DNA of 38,481 nucleotides from an uncultured bacterium (GTDB lineage: Bacteria; Verrucomicrobiota; Kiritimatiellia; RFP12; UBA1067). Of this stretch, positions 4,261 to 16,787 are shown piece after piece. Location of the stretch: positions 1 to 38,481 of the forward strand of contig CACZDG010000017.1 in assembly GCA_902779865.1 (NCBI GenBank), given 5' to 3'. Below the pieces are notes generated by a model. It searched no databases. It worked only from the letters and a program-made list of their open reading frames with translations, and was not told the origin of the DNA. Numbering within the stretch: position 1 is the stretch's first letter; the number at the start of each line of letters is the position of its first letter. Made by a program: the position numbers and the translations under genes.

Positions 4261-4665
4261 CTAGAGGGTTTCGACATATTTTCGTATGATTCCGAAGTCA
4301 GACCGCACAACAACGTTTGACCTTGCGCGGATGAACTTCGTCTTGCGGTCAGACACGGTTATGACGAGCGTCATGTCGTCGCGGTCGCGGAATCCGCTGA
4401 ACCCGGCGTCGTTGAACTCCCAGCTCGTAACCTTCGCCGCGATGATGAAATCGGCGTCGTCTGCCTTTTCCTTCACGACAAAACCCCTTTCGCGAAGAGA
4501 CTGCTTCAACGCCGCCTCCAAACGTGGTTCCGTTTTCTCAACGAAGAACGAAGTGCCGGATGCAAACTTCTCCGTGTGCTTTGGAATGCCCTCGTAAATT
4601 GAGCCGGGCGTCCAGCAACCGACAAGGCCGACTACGATTGAAAGAACTGTTAGAATTCTGAACAT
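4261..4665 (-). CDS. Predicted lipoprotein at the end of the murE operon
   Basis: 134 residues. The N-terminus has a short hydrophobic stretch ending in the lipobox LVGC, so Cys17 would be lipidated and the protein anchored in the envelope. The mature part (EKFASGTSFFVEKTEP..., ...LKQSLRERGFVVKE..., DDADFIIAAKVTSWEF) resembles small outer-membrane-associated lipoproteins that contain a LptE/LpoB-like alpha-beta unit, but no family can be named. The ATG at 4665-4663 lies inside the last codons of murE (16-base overlap), so it is probably translationally coupled to murE and transcribed with the division cluster. A longer open frame continues upstream of this ATG, but its composition is antisense-like and it overlaps murE deeply, so the internal ATG is preferred. 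Confidence 0.75.
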   Translation of the reverse strand: MFRILTVLSIVVGLVGCWTPGSIYEGIPKHTEKFASGTSFFVEKTEPRLEAALKQSLRERGFVVKEKADDADFIIAAKVTSWEFNDAGFSGFRDRDDMTLVITVSDRKTKFIRARSNVVVRSDFGIIRKYVETL

Positions 4666-5747
4666 ACGATGCGGTCGTCGAACGGTAGGACCTTGTCGCC
4701 TATAGTCTGGGTTGTTTCGTGCCCCTTCCCGCACACGACTACGGTATCGTCCGCCTTGGCGTGCGCAAGGGCGTAGTGGATTGCTGCGCGGCGGTCTGGT
4801 TCGACCACCACATCCGTACCTGCGGGGATGCCAACTACGATTTCGGAAATGATGTCCTCGGGACGCTCGCTGCGCGGATTGTCGCTTGTGACCACGAGCC
4901 TGTGAGCCCACTTCGCAGCAGCTGCGCCCATGAGCGGACGCTTTGCGCGGTCGCGGTCCCCGCCAGCGCCGAACACGGCCCACACCCTGCCCTTCGTGAA
5001 CGCGCGCACGGTGGAAAGGACGTTTGCGAGCGCGTCGTCGGTATGAGCGAAATCCACGAACACCTCCGCATCGCTGCGCGTCTTAACGCGCTCAAGGCGT
5101 CCCCAGCGCGGCGTAAGCGTTGGCACGGCGGCGCGTATCGCCTCGTCCGGCACTCCGACGGCGCGGGCAAGAGCCGCAGCCACAAGCACGTTCTGTACGT
5201 TGTAGCGCCCCGCGAGCGGACTCCGCCGGGATACGAAATCGGCGAAGTCCGCGTCGTGCGGCGCGGAAAATCCACATGTCACAAGGCGGAGCGGAAGCGC
5301 GGCGAGCTCGTCCGCGAGGCGACGCCCCCAGTAGCCGTCCACGCACACCACTGCCGGTGAGCCGGGATTCTCCGCAGCAAGCCGCTCGAAGAACAGACGC
5401 TTCGCCGCGAAGTACGCCTCCATCGTCTTGTGGTAGTCAAGGTGGTCTTCAGAAAGATTCGTGAACGCGCCGCCGGAGAAGTGCGTGCCGGCAGTGCGGT
5501 TCTGGTGGATTGCGTGGCTCGACGCCTCCATCACGCAGTTTGCGATGCCGTTCGCCTCCATCTCCGCATATATTTCCATCAACACCTTGTTCGGTGGCGT
5601 GGTGTAGCCCGTGGAGAACTTCCGGGCACCGGTATCCACCTCGACGGTGGTGATGTACCCCGTACGGCCAAGTGGCTTGAGGAACTCGGCAAGAACCCAT
5701 GTGGTGGTGGTCTTGCCATTGGTACCGGTGATGCCGTAAACGTTCAT
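4650..5747 (-). CDS. murE: UDP-MurNAc-tripeptide ligase MurE lacking the N-terminal domain
   Basis: 365 residues against about 480-500 for the family. MurE adds the third amino acid to UDP-MurNAc-L-Ala-D-Glu in the cytoplasm. The protein starts almost at the ATP-binding loop (GTNGKTTTT, residues 8-16). It keeps EASSHAIHQNR, TNLSEDHLDYH and the AAK lysine (Lys116, the carbamylated lysine in the family). It also keeps the C-terminal ligase domain with SDNPRSE, whose DNPR is the signature of meso-diaminopimelate-adding enzymes. The N-terminal UDP-substrate-binding domain of about 100 residues is missing. The ATG overlaps the ftsI stop (ATGA, 5747-5744), leaving no room for an upstream extension in frame. 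Its 3' end overlaps the lipoprotein start. Confidence 0.9.
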   Translation of the reverse strand: MNVYGITGTNGKTTTTWVLAEFLKPLGRTGYITTVEVDTGARKFSTGYTTPPNKVLMEIYAEMEANGIANCVMEASSHAIHQNRTAGTHFSGGAFTNLSEDHLDYHKTMEAYFAAKRLFFERLAAENPGSPAVVCVDGYWGRRLADELAALPLRLVTCGFSAPHDADFADFVSRRSPLAGRYNVQNVLVAAALARAVGVPDEAIRAAVPTLTPRWGRLERVKTRSDAEVFVDFAHTDDALANVLSTVRAFTKGRVWAVFGAGGDRDRAKRPLMGAAAAKWAHRLVVTSDNPRSERPEDIISEIVVGIPAGTDVVVEPDRRAAIHYALAHAKADDTVVVCGKGHETTQTIGDKVLPFDDRIVCSEF

Positions 5748-7567
5748 ACCTCGTCATCCTCCGGCACTTCCTCTGGAACGTCCGGCTCGACCGCTAGGTA
5801 ACGCAGCACGAACGTGGCGATTTCGCTGAACGTGGGACCGGCGCAGACGCCTCCCTGGTGGTTGAACACGGGGATGCCCTTCGCCTCGGAAGTGTCGCGA
5901 CGACGGCATACGGTTGGCTTCTGGTATGTGACGAGGATCACAACCTCAGGGCGCGAAGCAGGGACAATGCCGATGAACGAAGCGTGGAAATTGTTCTCCG
6001 AATAGCCGCGCCCCTCCTGCATCTGCGCGGTACCCGTCTTGCCGGCGATGGTGTAACCTGGCACGGCGGCCTTGCGCGCGGTGCCTCCCTTCTTCGCTAC
6101 GCCAAGCATCATCGCCCGAACCGTCCTTGCGGTTTCGGCGCGTATCGGATGTCCCACAACCTGGCGCTGGTGTTGATAGACAACGTTCTTCGATTCGGAA
6201 TTGCCGTCGTCATCGCGCTCCTCGATGCGTTCCACAATGTAGGGTTTGAGGAGCTCTCCATCGTTGCCTATGCAAGCGTATGCCGTCGCGAGCTGGATTG
6301 CTGTCACGGCCACGCCCTGCCCGATTGGCGCACGGGACCATTTCACCTTGTCCCATTTTTTCCAGTCAGGCAGAATACCTGTCTCCTCGCCTGGCAGCTC
6401 TATTCCTGTCTTGTGACCGAGTCCGAAGGCGTCCATATACGTCCACAATCTCTGCGGGCCGAGGTCGAAACCGAGCTTTCCGAACACGATGTTGGATGAA
6501 TGCACAAGAGCCTCCGTCACGCTCATGAACGGTTCCCACGTATGCGAACCGTCACCAGGCAGGCGAAAATAGCGGGAGTCTTTCCTGTCCGTATTGATCA
6601 TCGTCTTAGGCGAAACCATGCGCTCGTTTATTACGGCGCAGGCGGTGATAGTCTTCATCACGCTTCCTGGCTCGTATGATTCGGAAATGGCGCGGTTCAT
6701 GCGCTGTTCCTGGGTGGATGAGGGAAAATCTCCAGGATCGAAGTCCGGAAGCGTCGCCATCGCGAGCACCGCCCCCGTGCGCACCTGCAGTACGATGGCC
6801 CAGACGCGCTCGGCTTGATGTCGGACAAGCCCCGCCGCAAGTATCTTCTCGACCTCGTACTGTATGTTGTGGTCCACCGTGAGGTAAACGTCGCAGCCCG
6901 GCTTGGATTCAAGCGCCTTGTCCTCCTGCCGAAGAGCGCGCAGTTCATGTCCGTGCGCGTTCTTCACTCCACTGACCCTGCCCGACATCCCCTTTAGGAA
7001 CCGTTCGTATTTCAACTCTATGCCCGCGCCGCCCACGCGGTTCGTGGGATCGCGGCTAACGAATCCAAGTACCTGCGAGAGCTGGCGCCCCTGCGGATAC
7101 ACTCGCACCTGCTTCTCGTTCACCGAAAGCTCGTGTATGCCAGACACCTTCCCGTGCGCACCGTCATCGTCGGATGTCGCGAGATATACGAACCTGCTGT
7201 CGCGCCGTGCGTATGCATCCATGACCTTCCGCAGCGGAATGTCGAGCGACGTCGAAAGATTGGTGATGTTGGTCCACCGCGCGGATGCGGACACGGGCTG
7301 TCCCGGATGGCGTGGATCCTCGTTCGCGACCTTCGGATCCACATGGTATTCCCACACCGTCTTCGTGCATGCGAACGGTACGCCGCTGGACGAGTATATG
7401 CCGCCGCGCGGCGCCGCCGGGTACTTAGTAAACTTGTACGTCGGCTTCTTCTCCAATTTCACGAATCCGAAATGCAATATCGTCAGGCGCGTCGCAAGTC
7501 CGGCGACGGCACCCGCCAGTACCACCACCGGGAGCCAAAATCTGAATTTGTCGCTACGCCAGGCCAT
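5744..7567 (-). CDS. ftsI: Division transpeptidase, class B penicillin-binding protein FtsI/PBP3
   Basis: 607 residues, normal for the family. FtsI cross-links septal peptidoglycan on the periplasmic side. An N-terminal membrane segment (residues ~10-35) is followed by the dimerisation/pedestal domain, which includes PAAPRGGIYSSSGVPFA. The transpeptidase domain follows, with the catalytic SVMK (Ser302, Lys305), HSSN (the SxN motif) and AGKTGTAQ (the KTG motif). The gene follows ftsL by 21 bases and overlaps murE by four. No PASTA repeats are seen; the tail is acidic (EEVPEDDEV). Confidence 0.95.
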   Translation of the reverse strand: MAWRSDKFRFWLPVVVLAGAVAGLATRLTILHFGFVKLEKKPTYKFTKYPAAPRGGIYSSSGVPFACTKTVWEYHVDPKVANEDPRHPGQPVSASARWTNITNLSTSLDIPLRKVMDAYARRDSRFVYLATSDDDGAHGKVSGIHELSVNEKQVRVYPQGRQLSQVLGFVSRDPTNRVGGAGIELKYERFLKGMSGRVSGVKNAHGHELRALRQEDKALESKPGCDVYLTVDHNIQYEVEKILAAGLVRHQAERVWAIVLQVRTGAVLAMATLPDFDPGDFPSSTQEQRMNRAISESYEPGSVMKTITACAVINERMVSPKTMINTDRKDSRYFRLPGDGSHTWEPFMSVTEALVHSSNIVFGKLGFDLGPQRLWTYMDAFGLGHKTGIELPGEETGILPDWKKWDKVKWSRAPIGQGVAVTAIQLATAYACIGNDGELLKPYIVERIEERDDDGNSESKNVVYQHQRQVVGHPIRAETARTVRAMMLGVAKKGGTARKAAVPGYTIAGKTGTAQMQEGRGYSENNFHASFIGIVPASRPEVVILVTYQKPTVCRRRDTSEAKGIPVFNHQGGVCAGPTFSEIATFVLRYLAVEPDVPEEVPEDDEV

Positions 7568-7588
7568 TCCCCACGCCCATTAGATTCA

Positions 7589-8026
7589 TCAGCGGACCTT
7601 CCGGCGCGTGGCCCGTTTACGCAGTTGCGCACCAGGCGCAACTTGTGCCATGTTGGCTGTCGCAAGGCGCTCTTTGGCCCTTGCGACGGCAATCTGCCCC
7701 TGTACGGGACGCCCTTTCTTCATGCGCACAATCTGATCGGCACGTGGCATGTCCATCTCCAGCCCGAAACGCGTAAGACGGTCTTTGAGACGGTCCACGG
7801 CCATAAGTTCCGTCCAGCGCGACGCCACGCGTTCGCTTTCCAGTGTAAGCTGCTTGTATTGCTTCTCTGCCTGTTCCAATTCTCCGGCTATCGAAGTGCA
7901 GCGCATCCCCAGCATCCAATAGCACATCAACATGAAGAACCCCGTCACTATCAACGCGACGACTCCCGCCGAATGCACCGTGATGATGGCATCCTTCTTA
8001 ATCTTCCTTACAGACTTTCTTCTCAT
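7589..8026 (-). CDS. ftsL: FtsL-like division protein
   Basis: 145 residues with the start chosen at 8026. That ATG is one base past the rsmH stop and has AAAGGA nine bases upstream; an earlier start would overlap rsmH. The layout is a basic cytoplasmic tail (MRRKSVRKIKK), one membrane helix (~17-37) and a heptad-like coiled coil (~45-80: ELEQAEKQYKQLTLESERV), then a basic Ala/Arg-rich tail. This architecture and the position between rsmH and ftsI match FtsL, which holds FtsQ and FtsI at the septum. Sequence identity to FtsL is not recognisable by eye, so the call rests on topology and gene order. Confidence 0.75.
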   Translation of the reverse strand: MRRKSVRKIKKDAIITVHSAGVVALIVTGFFMLMCYWMLGMRCTSIAGELEQAEKQYKQLTLESERVASRWTELMAVDRLKDRLTRFGLEMDMPRADQIVRMKKGRPVQGQIAVARAKERLATANMAQVAPGAQLRKRATRRKVR

Positions 8027-8027
8027 G

Positions 8028-8948
8028 CTATGTCCTTTCAACTGCACGCAGCTTCGCGCTGCGAGATCTTGGGTTAATGGAAATTTCATCTTTCGTTGCG
8101 GTCACCGCACGACGCGTGACAGGGCGAACCCTTGGGAGGGATCCCTCCCAGCGCTCCCCGCCCTGCTGGAGCGAAAGCATCTTGCCGACGTGTGCGGCGA
8201 AACACTGCTTCACGATCCGGTCCGTAAGACTCTCGAACGTGATCACTGCAAACCGACCACCCGCCTTCAAAATCGAAAGCCCGCCTTCAAGAGCCCTGCG
8301 GAGTTCGCCGATCTCGTCGTTCACGGCCATACGGAGAGCCTGGAACGTCCGCGTCGCAGGATGGTGGCGTCCTCGCCTACCGACAGTCTTTTCCACCAGC
8401 TCCGCGAGTTGCCCCGTCGTCTCTATAGGACGCGCCGCGCGCGCACGCACGATAGCGTGCGCGATACGACGTGCATTCGGCTCTTCGCCAAACTCGCGTA
8501 GGACGTCCGCAAGCTCAGCCTCCGTCCGTGCAGCCACAAACTCAGCAGCGGTCTCGCCGCACGAACTATCCATGCGCATGTCAAGCGGGCCATCCAACTG
8601 GAAACTGAAACCACGCTCCGCCTCGTCCAGCTGCGGACTCGACACGCCGAGATCGAGCAGAATCCCGTCAACTCCATCCGGCACCTCATTGCCGCAGATT
8701 TCCGCAATGTCTCCGTGACGACCGTGAACCAGCGCCACTTTCACCCCCGTAAAATCCTTTAGGTGTGCGGCGCTCTCGTCGAGCGCCTGCCCATCGCGGT
8801 CGATACCCACCAGGGTCGTGCCCGCACCGCCGCGCAGAAGTATCTCCCGCGCGTGGCCGGCACGCCCCAGTGTTCCATCAACGTACACACCACCCCGCTT
8901 CACCGCCAGAGCATCGACCGTCTCCTTCAGAAGAACTGGAATATGCAT
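8028..8948 (-). CDS. rsmH: 16S rRNA (cytosine1402-N4)-methyltransferase RsmH (MraW)
   Basis: 306 residues. It methylates the P-site region of 16S rRNA using SAM. It starts MHIPVLLKETVDAL, the family hallmark, followed by VDGTLGRAGHA (SAM-binding loop), GILLDLGVSSPQLDEAERGFSF and the C-terminal RSAKLRAVER. The start at 8948 is supported by the strong SD AAGGAGG ten bases upstream; the frame stays open further upstream into mraZ, but that part does not look like RsmH. It lies 13 bases behind mraZ and directly ahead of ftsL, the classic order. Confidence 0.95.
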   Translation of the reverse strand: MHIPVLLKETVDALAVKRGGVYVDGTLGRAGHAREILLRGGAGTTLVGIDRDGQALDESAAHLKDFTGVKVALVHGRHGDIAEICGNEVPDGVDGILLDLGVSSPQLDEAERGFSFQLDGPLDMRMDSSCGETAAEFVAARTEAELADVLREFGEEPNARRIAHAIVRARAARPIETTGQLAELVEKTVGRRGRHHPATRTFQALRMAVNDEIGELRRALEGGLSILKAGGRFAVITFESLTDRIVKQCFAAHVGKMLSLQQGGERWEGSLPRVRPVTRRAVTATKDEISINPRSRSAKLRAVERT

Positions 8949-8961
8949 CGCCAATTCCTCC

Positions 8962-9447
8962 TTAGAAGCGCAGCCGCTTCTTGGCGGCTCGCAGGCTTTC
9001 CGACTCCTCCGCCGTGCGCTGGGGCACGTTTTCGGGAGCCCACAAACGGGCCATCCTAATCGCACCCTTCATCACAACGGGACCCTTCAAGTTTGCATAC
9101 GCAAGCAGCCTGTCGCTGATGCGTATGCGCCCCTGTATGTCAAACTCAAGCAATTCGGAGTCTTCGCCGATGCTTTCGAGTACGTCATTCAAGCCTTCAT
9201 CCGACAAAGCATCCTCCTGGACGCTCGCCAGACGCGACTCGAACACCCCCTTAGGGATGAGCTGGAGACAGGGATTCCCCTCCTCCTTCATGACATACAC
9301 GTAGTCGGAACCCAATGCGCGGCGCCAGACGCTAGGAATCGTAAGGCGCTTCTTTGGGTCAAGAGGACGTTCAAAGGTATTCACCAGTGCGCTGGTGGAC
9401 ACCTCATTCTTCGTCTCTTCGACACTCTGTTTGCCTAGTATTGACAT
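8962..9447 (-). CDS. mraZ: MraZ transcriptional regulator of the division cluster
   Basis: 161 residues as drawn from the ATG at 9447. The two AbrB/SpoVT-like halves are visible as LDPKKRLTIPSVWRR and LLEFDIQGRIRISDRLLAYANL. MraZ binds its own promoter and regulates the cluster. The drawn N-terminus is about 15-22 residues longer than usual and has no SD. The promoter at 9459-9487 would start the transcript near 9452, only about five bases before this ATG. GTG codons at 9402 (Val16) and 9384 (Val22) would give family-like length and a 50-70 base leader, so the true start may be one of these. Otherwise the message is near-leaderless. Confidence 0.9.
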   Translation of the reverse strand: MSILGKQSVEETKNEVSTSALVNTFERPLDPKKRLTIPSVWRRALGSDYVYVMKEEGNPCLQLIPKGVFESRLASVQEDALSDEGLNDVLESIGEDSELLEFDIQGRIRISDRLLAYANLKGPVVMKGAIRMARLWAPENVPQRTAEESESLRAAKKRLRF

Positions 9448-9458
9448 CGATTGACACT

Positions 9459-9487
9459 AGAATACACTTTTCCCCACCGAAAGTCAA
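9459..9487 (-). promoter_or_regulatory. mraZ promoter with possible MraZ box
   Basis: Read on the minus strand, TTGACT (9487-9482), 17 bases, TATTCT (9464-9459). The spacer contains TGGGG, matching the TGGGN element bound by MraZ in other bacteria. TG dinucleotides recur at 10-base spacing downstream (TGTAT, TGTCA), but they are not full TGGGN copies. It drives the minus-strand half of the division cluster. Confidence 0.7.
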
Positions 9488-9492
9488 ACCCA

Positions 9493-9769
9493 AAAAGCAA
9501 AAAAATAATCAAAAAAAATCCACGGCAATATTCTGTGCCCAGTACGGGCATGCAAAAAACCTTGAAAACAAAGGAGAAAACCGATATCCACGCTTCCTAC
9601 ACCCATCGCACCAGATCAACTAGGTTGCCTCTCCCCAAGGCCCATCACCCCCTCGCGTACCCCCTTGACACGCCCCACCACCACCCACCACGCCCCACAC
9701 ACCCCCTCACGCAAGCCCCCACCAACCACGAACCATGAATCACAAATCACGAATTATTGTAATTCGCTC
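9493..9769. other. Low-complexity intergenic region
   Basis: About 280 bases between the mraZ promoter and the tRNA promoter. It starts with A-rich runs (9493-9560) and turns into a C/A-rich stretch of CCCC, CCACC and CACG words at ~9640-9735. No credible gene, RNA or clean tandem repeat was found. The short open frames there are compositional. Confidence 0.5.
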
Positions 9770-9798
9770 TTGCAATAGACGACGGAATACGATATACT
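9770..9798 (+). promoter_or_regulatory. tRNA-Val promoter
   Basis: TTGCAA (9770-9775), 17-base spacer, TATACT (9793-9798). This is a near-consensus housekeeping promoter 20 bases before the mature tRNA 5' end. Confidence 0.8.
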
Positions 9799-9817
9799 AT
9801 ACCGCGTTTTCCGTTTA

Positions 9818-9894
9818 GGGCGCTTAGCTCAGTTGGTTAGAGCACTACCTTCACACGGTAGGGGTCACTGGTCCGAGTCCAGTAGCGCCCACCA
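9818..9894 (+). tRNA. tRNA-Val (anticodon CAC)
   Basis: 77 bases including encoded CCA. The acceptor stem GGGCGCT pairs with AGCGCCC. The D-arm contains AGCTCAGTTGGTTAGAGC. The anticodon stem CTACC/GGTAG closes the loop TTCACAC with anticodon CAC. The T-arm contains GGTCCGAGTCC. It reads valine codon GTG. Confidence 0.95.
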
Positions 9895-9927
9895 ATCTCT
9901 CCCTAAAATCCATTGTGGCGGTTTCGT

Positions 9928-10404
9928 CTATTTTCTGCGTCCCCTAGTTGGCTTGGCCCCCCTGCCCCGGTGGTGCGATGTTCGGTTGAACGTAGGTTTT
10001 CCATTCGGCGGATGGGCGCAGAGTCCCGAAAGCATGCGTCTGCCATGTCCGCTTTTTCCACCATGTACACTACCATGAACGACATGGCCTCTATGGTATC
10101 CACCATGATTGTGCGGACGATGTCCAAATCTCGGTGGCGGCGGACGGTGATGGCGGTACGAGTAATGTGGGTAACACGTATCCATGTACACAGGAAATCC
10201 ACTGTCGCATATTGTCGTAGTTGAATACCCGGATACTGGCGCCGCGTAATAGGCGGGAGATACATCGTAAACGGGTGACGAGTTGCAGGTGGACGTTGAA
10301 TAAGCTGGAACATACGATCTAACATACCCGGTATCAACGCGAGTCACACAACCCGTCAGCAATCCGACGAGTCCCGTCATGATAAAACAACGTGTAACAT
10401 TCAT
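9928..10404 (-). CDS. Small Tyr/His/Pro-rich lipoprotein
   Basis: 158 residues. The N-terminus MNVTRCFIMTGLVGLLTGC is a lipoprotein signal with lipobox LTGC. The mature chain is Ser/Tyr/Thr-rich (~25-80), then carries YRHHRPPPP and many His-Gly pairs (~84-120), and ends in a basic tail. Such His-rich low-complexity surface lipoproteins have no assigned function; metal binding is possible but only a guess. GAGGTGG lies just upstream of the ATG at 10404. It is convergent with the tRNA-Val gene, and no clear terminator separates them. Confidence 0.65.
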   Translation of the reverse strand: MNVTRCFIMTGLVGLLTGCVTRVDTGYVRSYVPAYSTSTCNSSPVYDVSPAYYAAPVSGYSTTTICDSGFPVYMDTCYPHYSYRHHRPPPPRFGHRPHNHGGYHRGHVVHGSVHGGKSGHGRRMLSGLCAHPPNGKPTFNRTSHHRGRGAKPTRGRRK

Positions 10405-10506
10405 GGTCCACCTCTCTTTCTTGTGTTAAGTTAGGCAAACCTCCCCACCCGTTCTGACAGATGCACACATCTCGCAGGAGAGAAAGAAACATGAGGCCGC
10501 CGTTCT

Positions 10507-10716
10507 CTACCGCGCACTTTCAAGCGCGGTTGTCACCGCACGTTCTGTGCGATTAGGATGCCCATTGCTGTGAGAATCGCGTCGCGGTAGATGCGCGCGG
10601 AGAAGTCGTTGCAGTGGTTTATTCGGCGCATCCACCGCCTCCAGAGACGTCACCGCCCACGCCGCTACGCAGAGAGCGACAGCAAGCGTACAACAGCAAG
10701 TTTTCACAATTTTCAT
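10507..10716 (-). CDS. Small secreted protein, probably frameshifted
   Basis: 69 residues as an uninterrupted frame. A perfect SD (AAAGGAGTG) precedes the ATG at 10716, and the first 25 residues form a convincing signal sequence with three consecutive cysteines (MKIVKTCCC...). After about residue 28 the frame turns unnatural, rich in Arg, Pro and His. The next frame instead gives a protein-like ending (NDFSARIYRDAILTAMGI... to LIAQNVR) with the C/G-ending codons used by neighbouring genes. It stops at 10533, directly before a 7-bp hairpin (10509-10530). The natural product probably used that ending, so a one-base indel or a sequencing error near 10630 is likely. Function unknown. Confidence 0.5.
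   Translation of the reverse strand: MKIVKTCCCTLAVALCVAAWAVTSLEAVDAPNKPLQRLLRAHLPRRDSHSNGHPNRTERAVTTALESAR
10509..10530 (-). terminator. Hairpin after the small secreted gene
   Basis: ACCGCGC/GCGCGGT, 7 bp with an 8-base loop. It follows the alternative-frame stop (10533) within a few bases on the minus strand. No T-run follows, so it is a weak or Rho-dependent end at best. Confidence 0.4.
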
Positions 10717-10814
10717 AATGACACTCCTTTTCTACTGCCGCGCATTATGCCAAAAACTCCCGCAGTGTGCCGGCAATTCGCGTTGCCGACTTTGGTGAAA
10801 AATCAATTTAGATA

Positions 10815-10843
10815 AAGACACGTGGGCGCGAATGTGGTATAAT
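10815..10843 (+). promoter_or_regulatory. ddl-ftsQAZ-mutL promoter (extended -10)
   Basis: AAGACA (10815-10820), 17 bases, TATAAT (10838-10843) preceded by TGG, giving an extended -10. It lies about 40 bases upstream of the ddl ATG. A small inverted repeat GGCG/CGCC brackets the AGGAG before ddl (10862-10876) and could partly mask the ribosome binding site. Confidence 0.75.
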
Positions 10844-10883
10844 TCACGTCGCTTTGTAAAAGGCGTTAGGAGCGCCAAAGAGA

Positions 10884-11792
10884 ATGAAGAGAATTTGTGT
10901 ATTGATGGGAGGCACGTCTAACGAACGGGACGTGTCGCTCGTGTCTGGAAAAAACGTCGCGGAGGCACTTGCCTCGCTAGGAACCTACGACGTCCTGCCT
11001 GTGCGGCTGGACGCCGACAATCTAGACGCCCTTCCGTCGAATGTTGACGCATGCTACATCGCGCTGCACGGCGGCTGGGGCGAAGACGGCGGGGTACAGG
11101 CAGCGCTCGACGCGCGTGGCATCCCCTACACGGGGCCAGGCGCAGCGGCAAGCCGTCTCGCGATGGACAAGATTGCCACGAAGAGAAAGCTCGACGCAGC
11201 CGGAGTGCCTACGGCGCCATGGTCTGTCGCCACGCCGTCGCAGCCGCTCGCCGACTCCCCCGTAGGCTATCCGTGCGTCGTCAAGGCGCCGCGCGACGGT
11301 TCTAGCGTCGGAGTGTATCTGGTGAAAAGCGCGGACGAGTTCCAACACGCCGTATCCGAGGCGCAGCGTATAGACCGCGAAAAGTTCGGCGGCGAGGGCG
11401 AGGCTCTCGTGGAGGCGTACATCCCGGGGCGCGAGACGACCGTTGGCGTGATAGGCCACACTGCCCTTCCCGTTGTTGAAATCTGCGCACCGAACGGTTG
11501 GTACGGATACGAGGAGAAGTACAACTCCGACGAAACGCGCTACCCGTTCCCCGACGACGCCTTCTGCCCGGAGATGCAGCGCATCGCGCTCGCCGCGTTC
11601 GACGCGACCGGCTGCCGCAGCGTGACGCGCGTGGATTTCCGCGTGACGCCCGACGGGATGATGTACGTACTTGAACTCAACACGTCCCCCGGCATGACGG
11701 GGCACTCCCTCGTACCAAAGGCCGCCGCGAAACTAGGAATCGAACTTCCCCAGCTCTGTGACCGCATACTGAAGACCGCCGCACATGATTAA
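10884..11792 (+). CDS. ddl: D-alanine--D-alanine ligase
   Basis: 302 residues, typical length. Ddl joins two D-alanines with ATP to make the terminal dipeptide of the peptidoglycan stem. The N-terminal GGTSNERDVSLVSG is the substrate loop. An ATP-grasp core follows (AAWLAMDK-like ASRLAMDKIATKRKL, VVKAPRDGSSVGV, VEAYIPGRETTVGV). The metal/substrate residues lie in RVDFRVTPDG and LELNTSPGMTGHSLVPKAA. First gene of the plus-strand half of the division cluster; it overlaps ftsQ by eight bases. Confidence 0.95.
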   Translation: MKRICVLMGGTSNERDVSLVSGKNVAEALASLGTYDVLPVRLDADNLDALPSNVDACYIALHGGWGEDGGVQAALDARGIPYTGPGAAASRLAMDKIATKRKLDAAGVPTAPWSVATPSQPLADSPVGYPCVVKAPRDGSSVGVYLVKSADEFQHAVSEAQRIDREKFGGEGEALVEAYIPGRETTVGVIGHTALPVVEICAPNGWYGYEEKYNSDETRYPFPDDAFCPEMQRIALAAFDATGCRSVTRVDFRVTPDGMMYVLELNTSPGMTGHSLVPKAAAKLGIELPQLCDRILKTAAHD

Positions 11793-12663
11793 GAGAAACA
11801 AAAACATAAAGGGCGAATCCGCCGCGCGCCGCATGGCCGTGCTTTCGGCCATATTGCTGGCCGGCGCCGCCGCTACGTGCTGCGGCCTCGCAATCAGCGT
11901 AGGTGCGCTGCGCGACGTATGGCGCGAGCAGTTCGGCGTAAGAGACACGCGCATCGACGTGGTGGTGTCGTCCTCAGGCAACATCGTCCAGCCAGACGTG
12001 ATCACAATCCACTTCGGCCTCACGAACGGAGCGAATCTCGCCACAATCCCGTTCAAGGAGCTGCGCGCAAGCCTGATGAAGCGGATTCCCAACATCCGCA
12101 ACTTGAAGATAGAGCGTCGTCTGCCCCGCCGCGTGACGATCGACGTGGAGGAACGCGTACCCGCCGTGCGCATCGCGCCGCCCAAGGGAAAATCGGACTC
12201 CGGGCGCGTGGCGGATTTCGACGGCGTCGTGTTCCGCTACTTCAACAGCGACCCAATGCCGATAATACGCGAATCCGCAGAACACAGCGCGTCTCCGGGC
12301 GAACGTCTCGCCGGAAACGCGGCAGCCGCCCTTCAGCTCATCAAGTTCCTCGCGGACGCTGCCGACGCCAAGGGCGAATCAAGCGAACCAGAACTCGCCG
12401 ACATGCGCGTTCTGGAGATTGACACCTCGAAGAGGGACTACCTTTTCGTCACCTTCAGCGACTACTCCACGGCGGAAATCGCCTGGGACCGCATGGGCGA
12501 GGGAACAGAACGCTCCAGCGCGAGCCTCAAACGCCAGCTCGTGCATCTCGCACAGGCAATGGCCGCGCACCTCACTCCGCGCACCACGCGCTGGATCGCC
12601 ACCGACTTCGGACCGGGCGGACGTGTTTCCGCCATGGACCCGTCGAGGGCCGGAGGCCACTGA
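11785..12663 (+). CDS. ftsQ: Cell division protein FtsQ/DivIB
   Basis: 292 residues. A basic N-terminal tail and one membrane helix (~17-40) are followed by a POTRA domain (~75-132: IPFKELRASLMKRIPNIRNLKIERRLPRRVTIDVEERVPAVRI), which matches the FtsQ pattern closely. A less conserved beta domain follows. FtsQ links FtsA/FtsZ-dependent assembly to FtsL, FtsB and FtsI in the periplasm. Its position between ddl and ftsA is the standard order. The start lies inside the ddl 3' end. Confidence 0.88.
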   Translation: MIKRNKNIKGESAARRMAVLSAILLAGAAATCCGLAISVGALRDVWREQFGVRDTRIDVVVSSSGNIVQPDVITIHFGLTNGANLATIPFKELRASLMKRIPNIRNLKIERRLPRRVTIDVEERVPAVRIAPPKGKSDSGRVADFDGVVFRYFNSDPMPIIRESAEHSASPGERLAGNAAAALQLIKFLADAADAKGESSEPELADMRVLEIDTSKRDYLFVTFSDYSTAEIAWDRMGEGTERSSASLKRQLVHLAQAMAAHLTPRTTRWIATDFGPGGRVSAMDPSRAGGH

Positions 12664-12680
12664 CACTTGAAAGGACGCAC

Positions 12681-13889
12681 ATGAATCCATCCGATCCAAT
12701 TGCCGCACTTGAGATTGGCACCACGCGCACCGTGATCGCCATCGGCGAACCACTCGGCGACGGGCGTATGCGCATCGCCGCATACGACAGCATCCCCTCG
12801 TCCGGCGTACGCAAAAGCCAGATTGTTGACGTAGCGCAGGCGCGGTACTCCGTCGCATCCGTGCAGAAGAAACTCGTCACCCAGTTCGACTACGCCGTGT
12901 CGCAGGCTTACCTCGTCGTGTCAGGTCCGCAGATACGCACAGACCAGTTCTCGGTGCAGGTGCAGCTGCCGCGTGCGACAGTCACCGACGAGGACATCGA
13001 GGAGATCGGCGAGCGGATGTACGACGTCGCACTGCCGCAGGACCGCCAGGCGCTTGAAATCGCCCGCCTCAGCTACGGGCTCGACGACCTCGACAACGTC
13101 ACATCGCCAAAGGGCATGAGCGGACACCTCCTCAAACTTCGCACGCTCTGCATCCACGGTTCGGCGCAGCGCATCGCGGACGCGAAGAACGCCGCAGACG
13201 CCGCGAAACTTGAGATTCTCGACGTATGCTACGCCGGCACGAGCGCGGCGGCCGCCGTCCTCACACCACAGCAGAAGCGCGACGGCGCGCTCGTGATCGA
13301 CCTCGGCGGCGGCTCCACGAACTTCACGGCGTGGGCCGACGGGCGCCTCCTCTACGCCGACGTAATCGGCGTCGGCGGCGACCACGTGACGGAGGACATC
13401 CGCTACGCCTTCTCGATCTCTCTTGCCCAGGCGGAAAACCTGAAAAACACTTCAGCCTCCGCCATGATCGGACCAGACGACGCAAGCGTGCGCATACCGT
13501 TGCCAGCTTCCACGCCCGGTTTCAACGACGCATCGATCTCCCTCCGTGCGCTCAACACCGTGGTCAACGCCCGTCTTAGCGAGCTCTTCACCATAATCCG
13601 CACGAAACTCGACGAGGTGAACCTGCTCCACCGGTTGAATGCTGGCGTATTCCTCACTGGCGGCGGTTCGTCGATGAAGAACGTCCTGCCGCTCGCCGCC
13701 AACGTCTTCGGACGCGCAGTGTCCATCGGGCAGATAGTGCCGGAGATCGAGGGACTCGAAAACGAGGCGAATCCGGCCGCGCTTGCGACCATCGTCGGGA
13801 CGCTCATTCAGACCGTTCCCGCAGAATCGGAAAACAAGTCGTTCATGGACGCTGTGCGCAGCTTCTTCGGAGGAAACAAGAAAAAATGA
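12681..13889 (+). CDS. ftsA: Actin-like division protein FtsA
   Basis: 402 residues. FtsA anchors FtsZ to the membrane and recruits later division proteins. The actin-fold ATPase motifs are visible: IAALEIGTTRTVIAIG, ALVIDLGGGSTNFTAW, VGGDHVTEDI and VFLTGGGSSMKNV. The 1C subdomain lies around residues 85-160. The C-terminus ends in SFMDAVRSFFGGNKKK, which fits the amphipathic membrane-targeting helix. AAAGGA lies upstream of the ATG. The stop overlaps the ftsZ start (ATGA). Confidence 0.93.
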   Translation: MNPSDPIAALEIGTTRTVIAIGEPLGDGRMRIAAYDSIPSSGVRKSQIVDVAQARYSVASVQKKLVTQFDYAVSQAYLVVSGPQIRTDQFSVQVQLPRATVTDEDIEEIGERMYDVALPQDRQALEIARLSYGLDDLDNVTSPKGMSGHLLKLRTLCIHGSAQRIADAKNAADAAKLEILDVCYAGTSAAAAVLTPQQKRDGALVIDLGGGSTNFTAWADGRLLYADVIGVGGDHVTEDIRYAFSISLAQAENLKNTSASAMIGPDDASVRIPLPASTPGFNDASISLRALNTVVNARLSELFTIIRTKLDEVNLLHRLNAGVFLTGGGSSMKNVLPLAANVFGRAVSIGQIVPEIEGLENEANPAALATIVGTLIQTVPAESENKSFMDAVRSFFGGNKKK

Positions 13890-14995
13890 ACAGCCAGCCA
13901 TCACCCATTCTCCTCCTCGGCGTCGGGGGTGCCGGAACCGCAATGGTCCGTGGCATCCTCCGCTCGTACGGCCCCGGTATCCGGGCTCTCGCGATAGACA
14001 CCGACGCGCAGTCCGGCGGCACGGGAGACATGCTTTTCCTGCTGCTCGGCGGAAACCGCCTCGCCGGACGCGGCACCGGTGGTCAGCCCGCATCCGCACG
14101 CGCCGCTTTCCAGGACACGCCTTCCGTGCTTGACTCGGCGCTTGAAGGCGTCCGCACCGTCGTGATCGTGACCGCGCTAGGCGGCGGCACGGGCGGCGGC
14201 GCCACGGGCGAAATACTCAAGCACCTCCACACGCTCGGCATCGCGACGCTCGTGTTCGCGACCATGCCGTTCTCGTTCGAGGGAGCGGAGCGCAGCCGCA
14301 CGGCGCGCGCCTCCATCGGCTCAATTGAGCAGCACGCCGACGTATCCGTGTTCCTGCCGCTCGACGAACTCGTCGCCGGCGCAAACACCGACAACATGCG
14401 CGACGCCCTTGCGCGCGGCATCGACACAATGTCTCTCGGAGTAACTCTTCTCTGGCGCGTCCTCGAAAAACCAGGCTACATAAGATTTGATCCAGAACGC
14501 CTGCGCACAATCCTCTCCGGCTGTGGACGCGCCCAGTTTGCCACCGCCACCGCGATGGGCCCCAACAGAGCGGAAGACATCCTCGCCTCGCTTTCCGAAA
14601 GCCCGCTTCTCAAACAGGACGCCAACTCCGCCCACGTGCGCACTCTCCTAGTAGGCGTACTCGCCGGCGACGACCTCCTGCTTTCCGAAGTCGGTACTGT
14701 CGCGAGCGGTCTTTCTGCCGCCTTTGGCCTCGGCGCCACGCTTGAACTCGGTACCGTAAACGACGAAGCCACGTTCTCCGGACGGCTCACCGTCGTCGTG
14801 CTGATATTCAACGAAAGCGCAACCGCCACGAAAAAGACGATGCCGGGGACGGTACGCCACGTTGCGCGCGACCGCGCCGGCGAGCGAGCCCTTGCGCGTA
14901 CGGACCGCTTCCGTCACTCTGACGCGACGATGTGGAACGACGAAGACCTCGACATCCCCACGTTCATCCGTCGCCAGCTAACGCTCGACAGATAG
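13886..14995 (+). CDS. ftsZ: Divergent FtsZ with altered T7 loop
   Basis: 369 residues. The tubulin-fold core is clear: GVGGAGTAMV (12-21), IDTDAQ (37-42), the signature loop GGGTGGG at 99-105 (usually GGGTGTG), MPFSFEGAERSRTARASIGSIEQHADVSVFLPLDELV, and the C-terminal peptide DEDLDIPTFIRRQL that binds FtsA. The T7 synergy loop, NxDxxD in typical FtsZ, reads RFDPER here. The Asn and the second Asp are Arg200 and Arg205; only Asp202 is kept. This loop completes the GTPase site of the neighbouring subunit, so hydrolysis may be slow, absent or done differently. It is the only FtsZ in the window and sits in the canonical place after ftsA. Confidence 0.93.
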   Translation: MNSQPSPILLLGVGGAGTAMVRGILRSYGPGIRALAIDTDAQSGGTGDMLFLLLGGNRLAGRGTGGQPASARAAFQDTPSVLDSALEGVRTVVIVTALGGGTGGGATGEILKHLHTLGIATLVFATMPFSFEGAERSRTARASIGSIEQHADVSVFLPLDELVAGANTDNMRDALARGIDTMSLGVTLLWRVLEKPGYIRFDPERLRTILSGCGRAQFATATAMGPNRAEDILASLSESPLLKQDANSAHVRTLLVGVLAGDDLLLSEVGTVASGLSAAFGLGATLELGTVNDEATFSGRLTVVVLIFNESATATKKTMPGTVRHVARDRAGERALARTDRFRHSDATMWNDEDLDIPTFIRRQLTLDR

Positions 14996-14999
14996 GACC

Positions 15000-16787
15000 A
15001 TGCCGCCGGACGGACATATCAGACTCCTGCCTAACCACGTGGCGAACAAGATCGCCGCAGGCGAGGTTGTCGAACGTCCTGCGTCCGTCCTCAAGGAACT
15101 CCTTGAAAACGCTCTCGACGCCGGCGCAACTCGCATCGAGGTGACCGTCACCGCCGGCGGACGCAACCTCGTTTCCGTGCGCGACAACGGATGTGGCATG
15201 AACCGCGAAGACGCCCTCCTTTCGCTTGAACGCCACGCTACGTCGAAGATCCGCGACGTGGACGACATCGAACGCATCGCCACGCTTGGATTCCGCGGCG
15301 AGGCCATACCGTCCATCGCGTCCGTCTCGCGCTTCACGCTTACCACCCGCAGGGAAGATGCCGAAGAAGGAACCCGCCTCGTCGTAAACGCAGGTATACT
15401 TGCAGAGGTCAAGGACTGCGGCGCACCCCCTGGCACGTGCATCGAGGTGCGTGACCTTTTCTGCAACGTCCCCGCAAGGCGTAAGTTCCTGCGGGCGTTC
15501 GTCACCGAGGAAGGACACGTCCGCGCCGCTTTCACCGTCCACGCGCTCGCCCATCCGGACGTCGGGTTCTCGCTGAACCTCGACGGACGCGAAATCTACC
15601 GTTTCCCGCCCGGCGCAACGCTTGAGGAGCGCGTTCGCGATCTATTCGGCGCATCCTTTGCGGAATCGCTCGTGCCAATAGCGTCCGACGTCAACGGCGT
15701 TCGCGTACACGGCTATGCAGAGCGTCCAGATCACGACTCCTCGTTGCGCCGCGACCAGTTCGTATTCGTGAACGGCCGCCCGGCCACCGCCGCATCCATC
15801 ACCTACGCCCTCCGCGAAGCCTATCCCAGACAGCGCACCGACGCCCGCCCGGCACTCGTACTTTTCATCGACCTTCCGCCGGAGCAGGTGGACGTCAACG
15901 TTCACCCCGCGAAGCGCGAGGTGCGTTTCCGCCGCTCTGCCGACGTGCGCGACGCTATACTCGCCGCGTTCGCGCCGCAGCGGGGCGAAAATCCGGTCGT
16001 GTTGAAAAGCGATCTACCCATGCCAGAATCGCAATCGCCAGCTTCCGCGCCACAGCCCTTCGCCGTTCCCTTCCAACCTTCGCTTCCTCATCCTATTCCG
16101 CCAGCGCCAACGGTCGCACTGAAATGCGACCCTCCCGAAACGGAAACACCTCCAGAAACGGAAAGCCCTGCTGCACCAATTCCAACCGATGATCCACCTC
16201 TCCAAACCGCAGCTGGTCCCTGGAGATGGTTCAAGTTCCTCGCACAGACAGCGTCCGGATGGGTGCTACTTGAAACCGATGCGGGACTCGTGACCCTTAA
16301 CCCACGCGCCGCACGCGAGCGCATTGCATACGAGAAACTGATTGACGCGCACGAGGCGCTGACGCAGCCGCTGTTGATCCCGGAGACCGTTACGCTCCCG
16401 CCGACAGAATCCGCCCGCATAAGGAATTTCCTGAAGGAACTGCAAGCCATAGGTTTCGCCGTTGAGGAGTTCGGCCGCGACACGTGGAAAGTCGATTCAG
16501 TGCCGTCGCTGCTTGACGGCTACCCCGTTCCTGAGCTATTGGCGTCCATCGCCTCGGACATCGCCGAGGCCGGAGCGCAGCGCGGCGGTACACGCTGGCG
16601 CGACGAGTTGATTGCCAAGAGCGTGGCGCGTTCCTATTCCCGTGCTTCCCTGCAACTTGAGCCTGAAGCCGCCACGCAGCTAGTCGAGGAACTTGCGCGT
16701 ACGCGAATGCCATACGTCAGCCCCCGCGGACGTCCCGTAATGACGTTCACTTCCAACGCCGAACTTTTACGTAAGTTTGACCGTTGA
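15000..16787 (+). CDS. mutL: DNA mismatch repair protein MutL
   Basis: 595 residues. MutL couples MutS mismatch recognition to strand removal. The N-terminal GHKL ATPase motifs are intact: ENALDAGATRIEV, DNGCGM, RHATSKI and GFRGEAIPSIASVS. A Pro-rich linker (~340-400) precedes the dimerisation domain. The endonuclease motif DQHAxxE of MutL homologues reads NPRAARE (434-440), and the CPHGRP element reads SPRGRP (574-579). The metal-binding residues are therefore lost, as in MutH-partnered MutL. The gene starts four bases after ftsZ and has no promoter of its own in sight, so repair is transcribed with division. The stop overlaps the tRNA-Pro -35 box. Confidence 0.95.
   Translation: MPPDGHIRLLPNHVANKIAAGEVVERPASVLKELLENALDAGATRIEVTVTAGGRNLVSVRDNGCGMNREDALLSLERHATSKIRDVDDIERIATLGFRGEAIPSIASVSRFTLTTRREDAEEGTRLVVNAGILAEVKDCGAPPGTCIEVRDLFCNVPARRKFLRAFVTEEGHVRAAFTVHALAHPDVGFSLNLDGREIYRFPPGATLEERVRDLFGASFAESLVPIASDVNGVRVHGYAERPDHDSSLRRDQFVFVNGRPATAASITYALREAYPRQRTDARPALVLFIDLPPEQVDVNVHPAKREVRFRRSADVRDAILAAFAPQRGENPVVLKSDLPMPESQSPASAPQPFAVPFQPSLPHPIPPAPTVALKCDPPETETPPETESPAAPIPTDDPPLQTAAGPWRWFKFLAQTASGWVLLETDAGLVTLNPRAARERIAYEKLIDAHEALTQPLLIPETVTLPPTESARIRNFLKELQAIGFAVEEFGRDTWKVDSVPSLLDGYPVPELLASIASDIAEAGAQRGGTRWRDELIAKSVARSYSRASLQLEPEAATQLVEELARTRMPYVSPRGRPVMTFTSNAELLRKFDR

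Follow-up and report, generated by a model that had tools for sequence, protein, structure and literature searches.

Does a bacterial division ring need an FtsZ that hydrolyzes guanosine triphosphate (GTP) rapidly? The need of division for FtsZ hydrolysis and treadmilling has been argued mainly from engineered mutants. A natural counter-case may lie in a 38,481-nucleotide stretch of DNA, here called the window in its entirety (GenBank assembly GCA_902779865.1, contig CACZDG010000017.1), from an uncultured bacterium placed by GTDB in the order RFP12 of the class Kiritimatiellia, phylum Verrucomicrobiota. Its ftsZ gene (13886..14995, plus strand) was identified from the open reading frame (ORF) call, Pfam and NCBIfam profiles and a predicted model, and encodes 369 amino acids with a charge opposite to the usual one at a key catalytic position. 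As described below, this charge recurs across dozens of species for which no back-up FtsZ came to light.

The T7 loop in the window and across the order

In the window FtsZ, the T7 loop and the start of helix H8 read R200 F201 D202 P203 E204 R205 (14483..14500, plus strand), where Escherichia coli has N207 V208 D209 F210 A211 D212; the NxDxxD motif is thus RxDxxR. A MAFFT alignment and all 18 individual pairwise alignments paired N207 with R200, D209 with D202 and D212 with R205, and the region was gap-free in HMMER alignments to Pseudomonas aeruginosa and enteric FtsZ, in agreement with the residues named in a preliminary description of this DNA. A misregistered T7 was ruled out by the 18 concordant alignments. 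The same description had allowed for an intact motif in another register, but neither NxDxxD nor NxDxxE occurs anywhere else in the 369-residue protein. In the predicted model, H8 spans residues 203–210, with D202 at the helix start and E204 and R205 in its first turn. The register of H7 is less sure, as L175/I179 were obtained in 13 of the 18 pairwise alignments, with four shifted by one and one off.

In this loop, first described as broken, the Asn and the second Asp are both Arg, but the first Asp (D202) is intact and Arg200 occupies a freely varying site. Among 15 rows (aligned sequences) from the genus, position 207 is Q in five, R in four, H and S in two each and M and N in one each, while position 212 is R in 14 and H in one, so R205 is conserved and R200 drifts. 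Position 210, like 207, is variable within the genus. Synonymous codons at R205 (Arg in 13/14 sequences) and a gene-wide ratio of nonsynonymous to synonymous polymorphism (pN/pS) of 0.35 are signs of purifying selection. The reversed charge proposed for the D212 position stands, as a conserved feature.

We then followed the motif through related genomes. The order contributed 109 rows, 54 from 60 genomes (some of these 54 from genomes <80% complete) and 55 from a later set; 99 belong to families f1, f2, f3, f5 and f6 and ten to f4. Eight order genomes with matches (G019, G039, G240, G267, G276, G295, G298 and G301) contributed no rows, their sequences being partial, split or not fetched. Outside the order, 174 genomes had a match; 105 rows were taken first, mostly down the score list, followed by 25 weaker or unlisted ones, and 44 were left out. 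Twelve named controls were chosen for spread from 60 of 117 records, and the partial sequences L015 and L206 were excluded from the tree. A first set of 159 rows served for the D209/D212 coincidence test, and presence of FtsZ was surveyed in 117 genomes of the order and 194 sampled genomes of the phylum.

Across the five families, position 212 is basic (R/H/K) in 93/99 rows, D209 is kept in 93/99, an acidic residue stands at 211 in 90/99 and N207 survives in three. The complete N/D/D combination is present in none of the 109 order rows and in 12/13 controls outside the phylum. Family f4 of the same order has a basic 212 in 0/10 rows, mostly carrying Thr, and its rows were the first to split within the order on a quick tree (five f4 rows, T7 columns blanked, unrooted). 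In the whole phylum, N/D/D was retained in only 11/239 rows, that is, 11/130 outside the order; other verrucomicrobial families have NDT/NDA or RGD at T7. Because some families elsewhere in the class still have canonical NLDFAD forms, loss of the motif probably took place within the lineage. The change first noted in one protein is thus confirmed, not as a one-off but as a feature shared by five families of a single order, within a phylum in which few proteins keep the full motif. No such FtsZ T7 trait was seen among the listed titles and abstract openings of open-licence papers, where a search aimed at Verrucomicrobia met only papers that, by their titles, concern tubulins.

This rarity of the full motif could mean that T7 constraint was lost generally in the phylum, the motif being unneeded and its change of no special effect on ring dynamics. 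The NDT/NDA and RGD variants of other families agree with this, as does the essential FtsZ of Verrucomicrobium spinosum from the same phylum (PMC12283558), compared here without its T7 letters. Relaxed constraint does not, however, fit a position 212 that stays R, H or K in almost all five-family rows while 207 and 210 vary within the genus, and we consider this explanation improbable.

The gene itself is an authentic division ftsZ, the sole one found in this rumen/gut Kiritimatiellae-type bacterium, because an FtsA gene adjoins it and it is the only match in the genome; the identity assumed at the outset was upheld on both counts. The start codon region of ftsZ lies within the 3′ end of ftsA (12681..13889, plus strand; TIGR01174 236.5 bits, cut-off 175.85), with a four-base overlap, and the C-terminal peptide LDIPTFIRR (residues 355–363; 14948..14974, plus strand) is present, in line with the preceding FtsA and the tail originally described. 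An FtsA match was found in the ftsZ flank for 99/109 order rows and the C-terminal-peptide pattern in 98/109. The window protein has a complete predicted FtsZ fold and passes both Pfam domains (Tubulin/FtsZ 69.5 bits, cut-off 33; FtsZ_C 30.1 bits, cut-off 27). It scores 134.3 bits against the NCBIfam ftsZ equivalog TIGR00065, below the cut-off of 295.2, which fails most of the phylum, as only 19/194 sampled genomes pass it.

If the alignment or the assembly were wrong, or if the genome held a normal ftsZ elsewhere, the altered loop would be an artefact or the property of a paralogue. The genome is indeed a draft of 272 contigs at 92% completeness. Yet no second FtsZ or tubulin match was found in this draft, where searches gave one tubulin-family gene, and a second ftsZ, raised as a caveat in the preliminary description, was rejected. 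The searched genomes of the order likewise gave no second full FtsZ match. With the T7 register stable and N/D/D missing from every order row, an artefact or paralogue is scarcely credible.

T6 and the remainder of the nucleotide site

Comparing derived with canonical alignment columns brought out a second loss, overlooked in the initial account of the catalytic interface. E. coli N165 in T6 is described as a guanine-bonding residue conserved in FtsZ and tubulin (PMC8456036); the window protein has L159 at this site (14360..14362, plus strand) in 17/18 pairwise alignments, one leaving the site unaligned. N165 is replaced in 99/99 rows of the five families (L in 86, Q in nine, M in three, S in one) and kept in f4 (10/10), in class rows (39/41), in phylum rows (63/64) and in controls (13/13). 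Among the 25 later additions from the phylum, which score more weakly, only 13 keep it, so the loss also occurs outside this order. Within the order, T6 loss and basic 212 map to the same part of the tree. The initial account had also left out the acid at E204, whose conservation comes close to that of the basic residue at R205.

Residues of the phosphate site were kept across the 99 rows: D45 in 98 (one gap), E138 in 98 and R142 in 94. As T6 Asn was lost alongside the T7 change while these residues remained, the alignments indicate that the nucleotide site is rebuilt, beyond T7 alone. Read from the aligned positions, this FtsZ has lost the potassium (K+)-binding Asn and the second catalytic Asp of T7 and the guanine-binding Asn of T6. 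An acid or Asn is found at H7 position 186 or 187 in 87/99 rows, so a guanine preference may survive, and the idea of a fully lost guanine pocket is weakened accordingly.

The T4 signature loop, GGGTGGG (residues 99–105; 14180..14200, plus strand), is as first reported. It differs by one letter, Gly at the S/A/T place, from the tubulin signature [SAG]GGTG[SAT]G in the PROSITE form quoted in PMC1845146. The altered letter, E. coli T110, is Gly in 14/15 genus rows and Ser in most other phylum rows.

R or K at position 207 or 47 was seen in 52/99 five-family rows versus 0/13 controls, and in 41/105 rows outside the order. That a built-in cation could replace the T7 K+ is a lead only, suggested by these residues. 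R/K207 is linked with Q47 loss inside the order (p 0.046) and Q47 is associated with N207 outside it (Fisher p 1.2e-4), both uncorrected for relatedness. As a separate observation, among the 105 rows from elsewhere in the phylum, Q/K/R is found at 47 in 52/54 with N207 versus 24/51 without; a K or R there may substitute for the potassium ion of T7, again in an association uncorrected for relatedness.

Consequences for hydrolysis and ring dynamics

Filaments of Staphylococcus aureus FtsZ provide a residue-level comparison. As described in PMC8936486, D210 swings and places the attacking water, D213 holds water and is water-linked to R143 of the partner, and N208, the K+ ligand in T7, contacts D46 and Q48. 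The same source reports that D46A, R143Q, N208L, D210N and D213N stop assembly, and that Q48A and R143K retain it with lower GTPase activity. The window FtsZ keeps the equivalents of D46, Q48, R143 and D210 (D40, Q42, R136 and D202) and has Arg at those of N208 and D213. Q42 (14009..14011, plus strand) aligns with E. coli Q47 and S. aureus Q48, whose role is given in PMC8936486, and R136 (14291..14293, plus strand) with E. coli R142 and S. aureus R143. Shared with both canonical proteins are the fold, the T1/T3/T4/T5 phosphate site, D209, the C-terminal peptide and the ftsQ-ftsA-ftsZ order, whereas N207 is replaced by R (variable), D212 by R (conserved), N165 by L and T110 by G.

Two further systems bear on position 212. 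The E. coli FtsZ D212G allele is named FtsZ2, and we take the D212 position to be that of tubulin residue 254. According to PMC7320174, D212G is quoted at <1% of wild-type hydrolysis and assembles into static rings, and a chimera in that study had an about tenfold GTPase reduction, likewise with static rings. The window FtsZ shares with D212G the missing second catalytic Asp and a predicted hydrolysis defect; unlike the mutant, it is natural, its replacement is conserved and positive, and N207 and N165 are changed too. In tubulin, T7 Lys254 of beta-tubulin keeps the alpha-site GTP unhydrolyzed and Glu254 catalyzes at the other site (PMC13394414), although the E/K assignment is worded the opposite way in PMC2746283. 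Alpha-tubulin E254A/E254N microtubules are reported as hydrolysis-deficient (PMC8764682). The window FtsZ thus resembles beta-tubulin in having a basic residue at the T7 catalytic position, which in tubulin completes a non-hydrolyzing site. Only every second tubulin interface is of the Lys254 type, whereas in an FtsZ homopolymer every interface would be.

From the E. coli D212G, S. aureus and tubulin Lys254 comparisons, we infer a hydrolysis-poor polymer interface. Slow or absent hydrolysis, as initially suggested, is a fair prediction, because an authentic division FtsZ here carries inverted charge at the D212 position. Our best explanation, to which we give about an even chance, is that the site was rebuilt in the ancestor of the five families into that of a nucleotide-binding polymer with very slow hydrolysis and a long-lived Z ring. 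A single rebuilding in that ancestor would be the simplest history. The FtsA-tethered FtsZ would still bind nucleoside triphosphate and form head-to-tail polymers in which R205 would face the gamma-phosphate of the neighbouring subunit. In the absence of the water-holding Asp, hydrolysis would proceed very slowly, in the manner of tubulin's Lys254 interface, and the Z ring would form a long-lived, weakly treadmilling scaffold turned over by something other than fast GTP hydrolysis. FtsZ is more conserved than FtsA in 56/60 pairs within the order and so looks remodelled and working, not decaying.

Several points weigh against a slow, long-lived polymer. Four of six catalytic or interface residues are kept (D40, Q42, R136 and D202) and E204 is next to the position of the lost Asp; with D202 and the acid at 204 in place, catalysis could have been relocated. 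As assembly is abolished outright in the S. aureus N208L and D213N mutants (PMC8936486), a protein that is slow yet still assembles cannot be taken for granted, and by analogy compensation would have to exist somewhere. Where R205 lies with respect to the phosphate is something we infer. The T6 and T7 changes occur together on a single tree branch, and 6/99 rows lack both N165 and a basic 212. Statistical links between T7 positions lose significance once relatedness is counted, or are uncorrected for it. Finally, an FtsZ match was absent in 6/117 order genomes, which are drafts, one of them among the 49 best-quality genomes.

Relocated catalysis would have D202 and E204, or another acid, hold the attacking water and R205 pair with a partner acid, giving near-normal hydrolysis and treadmilling. 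The prevalence of D209 and of an acid at 211 in the five families is as this predicts. In the first set, 11/159 rows lack an acid at both 209 and 212, and five of these have E211; loss of D209 and loss of D212 rarely coincide (Fisher p 1.2e-6). However, the Fisher test ignores relatedness, and independent pairs on the tree gave no significance, so that a rule of keeping either D209 or D212 was dropped. E211 is also one residue off the D212 position in the predicted helix, and D213N already halts S. aureus assembly (PMC8936486). We regard relocated catalysis as a serious possibility, albeit an unlikely one.

Other natural FtsZ proteins differ in how far they have departed from the canonical form. 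That of Ca. Thiosymbion oneisti has a low measured GTPase activity (PMC8953583). V. spinosum FtsZ shares the phylum, divergence, a division and cell wall (dcw) cluster and essentiality, but is called canonical though divergent and has the signature GGGTGSG (PMC1845146, PMC12283558). Nitrosopumilus maritimus FtsZ has also lost the T7 motif but, as presented in PMC3684127, has lost its GTP-binding motif too and is thought to have lost its division role. Planctomycetota and Chlamydiota, related to Verrucomicrobiota, are described as having no FtsZ (PMC12283558).

The absence of FtsZ in these relatives would suit a protein that is only an FtsA-binding adaptor, a non-polymerizing pseudo-GTPase in a ring formed by something else, as would two other verrucomicrobial genomes whose FtsA-adjoining FtsZ-like genes are too short for the C-terminal domain. 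Against this stand the complete predicted fold and phosphate site of the window FtsZ and its conservation above FtsA, which make such an adaptor very unlikely. Returning to the slow polymer, a broader proposal is possible, though we hold it tentatively and at clearly less than an even chance: bacteria of entire families would divide by means of one FtsZ, nearly hydrolysis-dead and non-treadmilling, with an altered guanine pocket and, at each interface, an Arg resembling tubulin K254. This FtsZ would represent one stage in a gradual and recurrent dismantling of its catalysis across Verrucomicrobiota, extending to copies that lack a C-terminal domain, in a superphylum where Planctomycetota and Chlamydiota lost FtsZ.

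The FtsZs of these families offer a natural test of a Z ring with little or no hydrolysis. They bear on whether a built-in cation can replace the T7 K+ site and on how FtsZ might become dismantled before its loss, and the pattern of D209 kept, 212 inverted and T6 Asn lost could separate assembly residues from turnover residues.

Eroded FtsZ forms in the phylum and the surrounding locus

Other altered forms, likewise adjoining FtsA, were encountered outside the order. Family f10 (L268, L272, L273, L277, L278 and L119) has Leu at N165 (FPLE/FPLD) and a WLxP-L T7 loop, and is possibly an independent parallel to the window's order. Family f33 (L281–L285) has a very divergent FtsZ adjoining FtsA, with a T7 that is unalignable or altered, a GLGG[AG]MGSAG signature and no recognizable T7 motif in 4/5. 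In f42, a 285-residue FtsZ-like protein (L286) follows the FtsA gene in a genome of one 5.7-Mb contig (G136), and a 263-residue one (L287, G225) follows FtsA with a GTPase domain of 22.3 bits versus the Pfam cut-off of 33. Both have an FtsA-binding-like peptide near the end, and neither a T7 nor FtsZ_C was detected in them; a full-length f42 protein likewise has no FtsZ_C match. At E 0.001, 4/194 phylum genomes gave no FtsZ match (G153, G193, G234 and G237). At E 1, G193 and G237 gave weak matches and G153 and G234 none, through loss or a draft gap.

In the window, dcw genes are split into two opposite groups (4650–16787). The plus-strand group comprises ddl, encoding D-Ala-D-Ala ligase (10884..11792), a ftsQ-like gene (POTRA_1; 11785..12663), ftsA and ftsZ, followed 3′ of ftsZ by mutL (15000..16787); ddl, the ftsQ-like gene and mutL were assigned by Pfam profile matches. 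The minus-strand group contains mraZ, rsmH, a small ORF at the expected ftsL place (7589–8089), ftsI and murE. Directly after ftsI, the MurE ORF (4650–5747, minus strand; 365 amino acids) seemingly lacks its N-terminal domain, with murE models matching only from about position 106. Among genus relatives, five murE frames are similarly short (366–379 amino acids) and others are longer.
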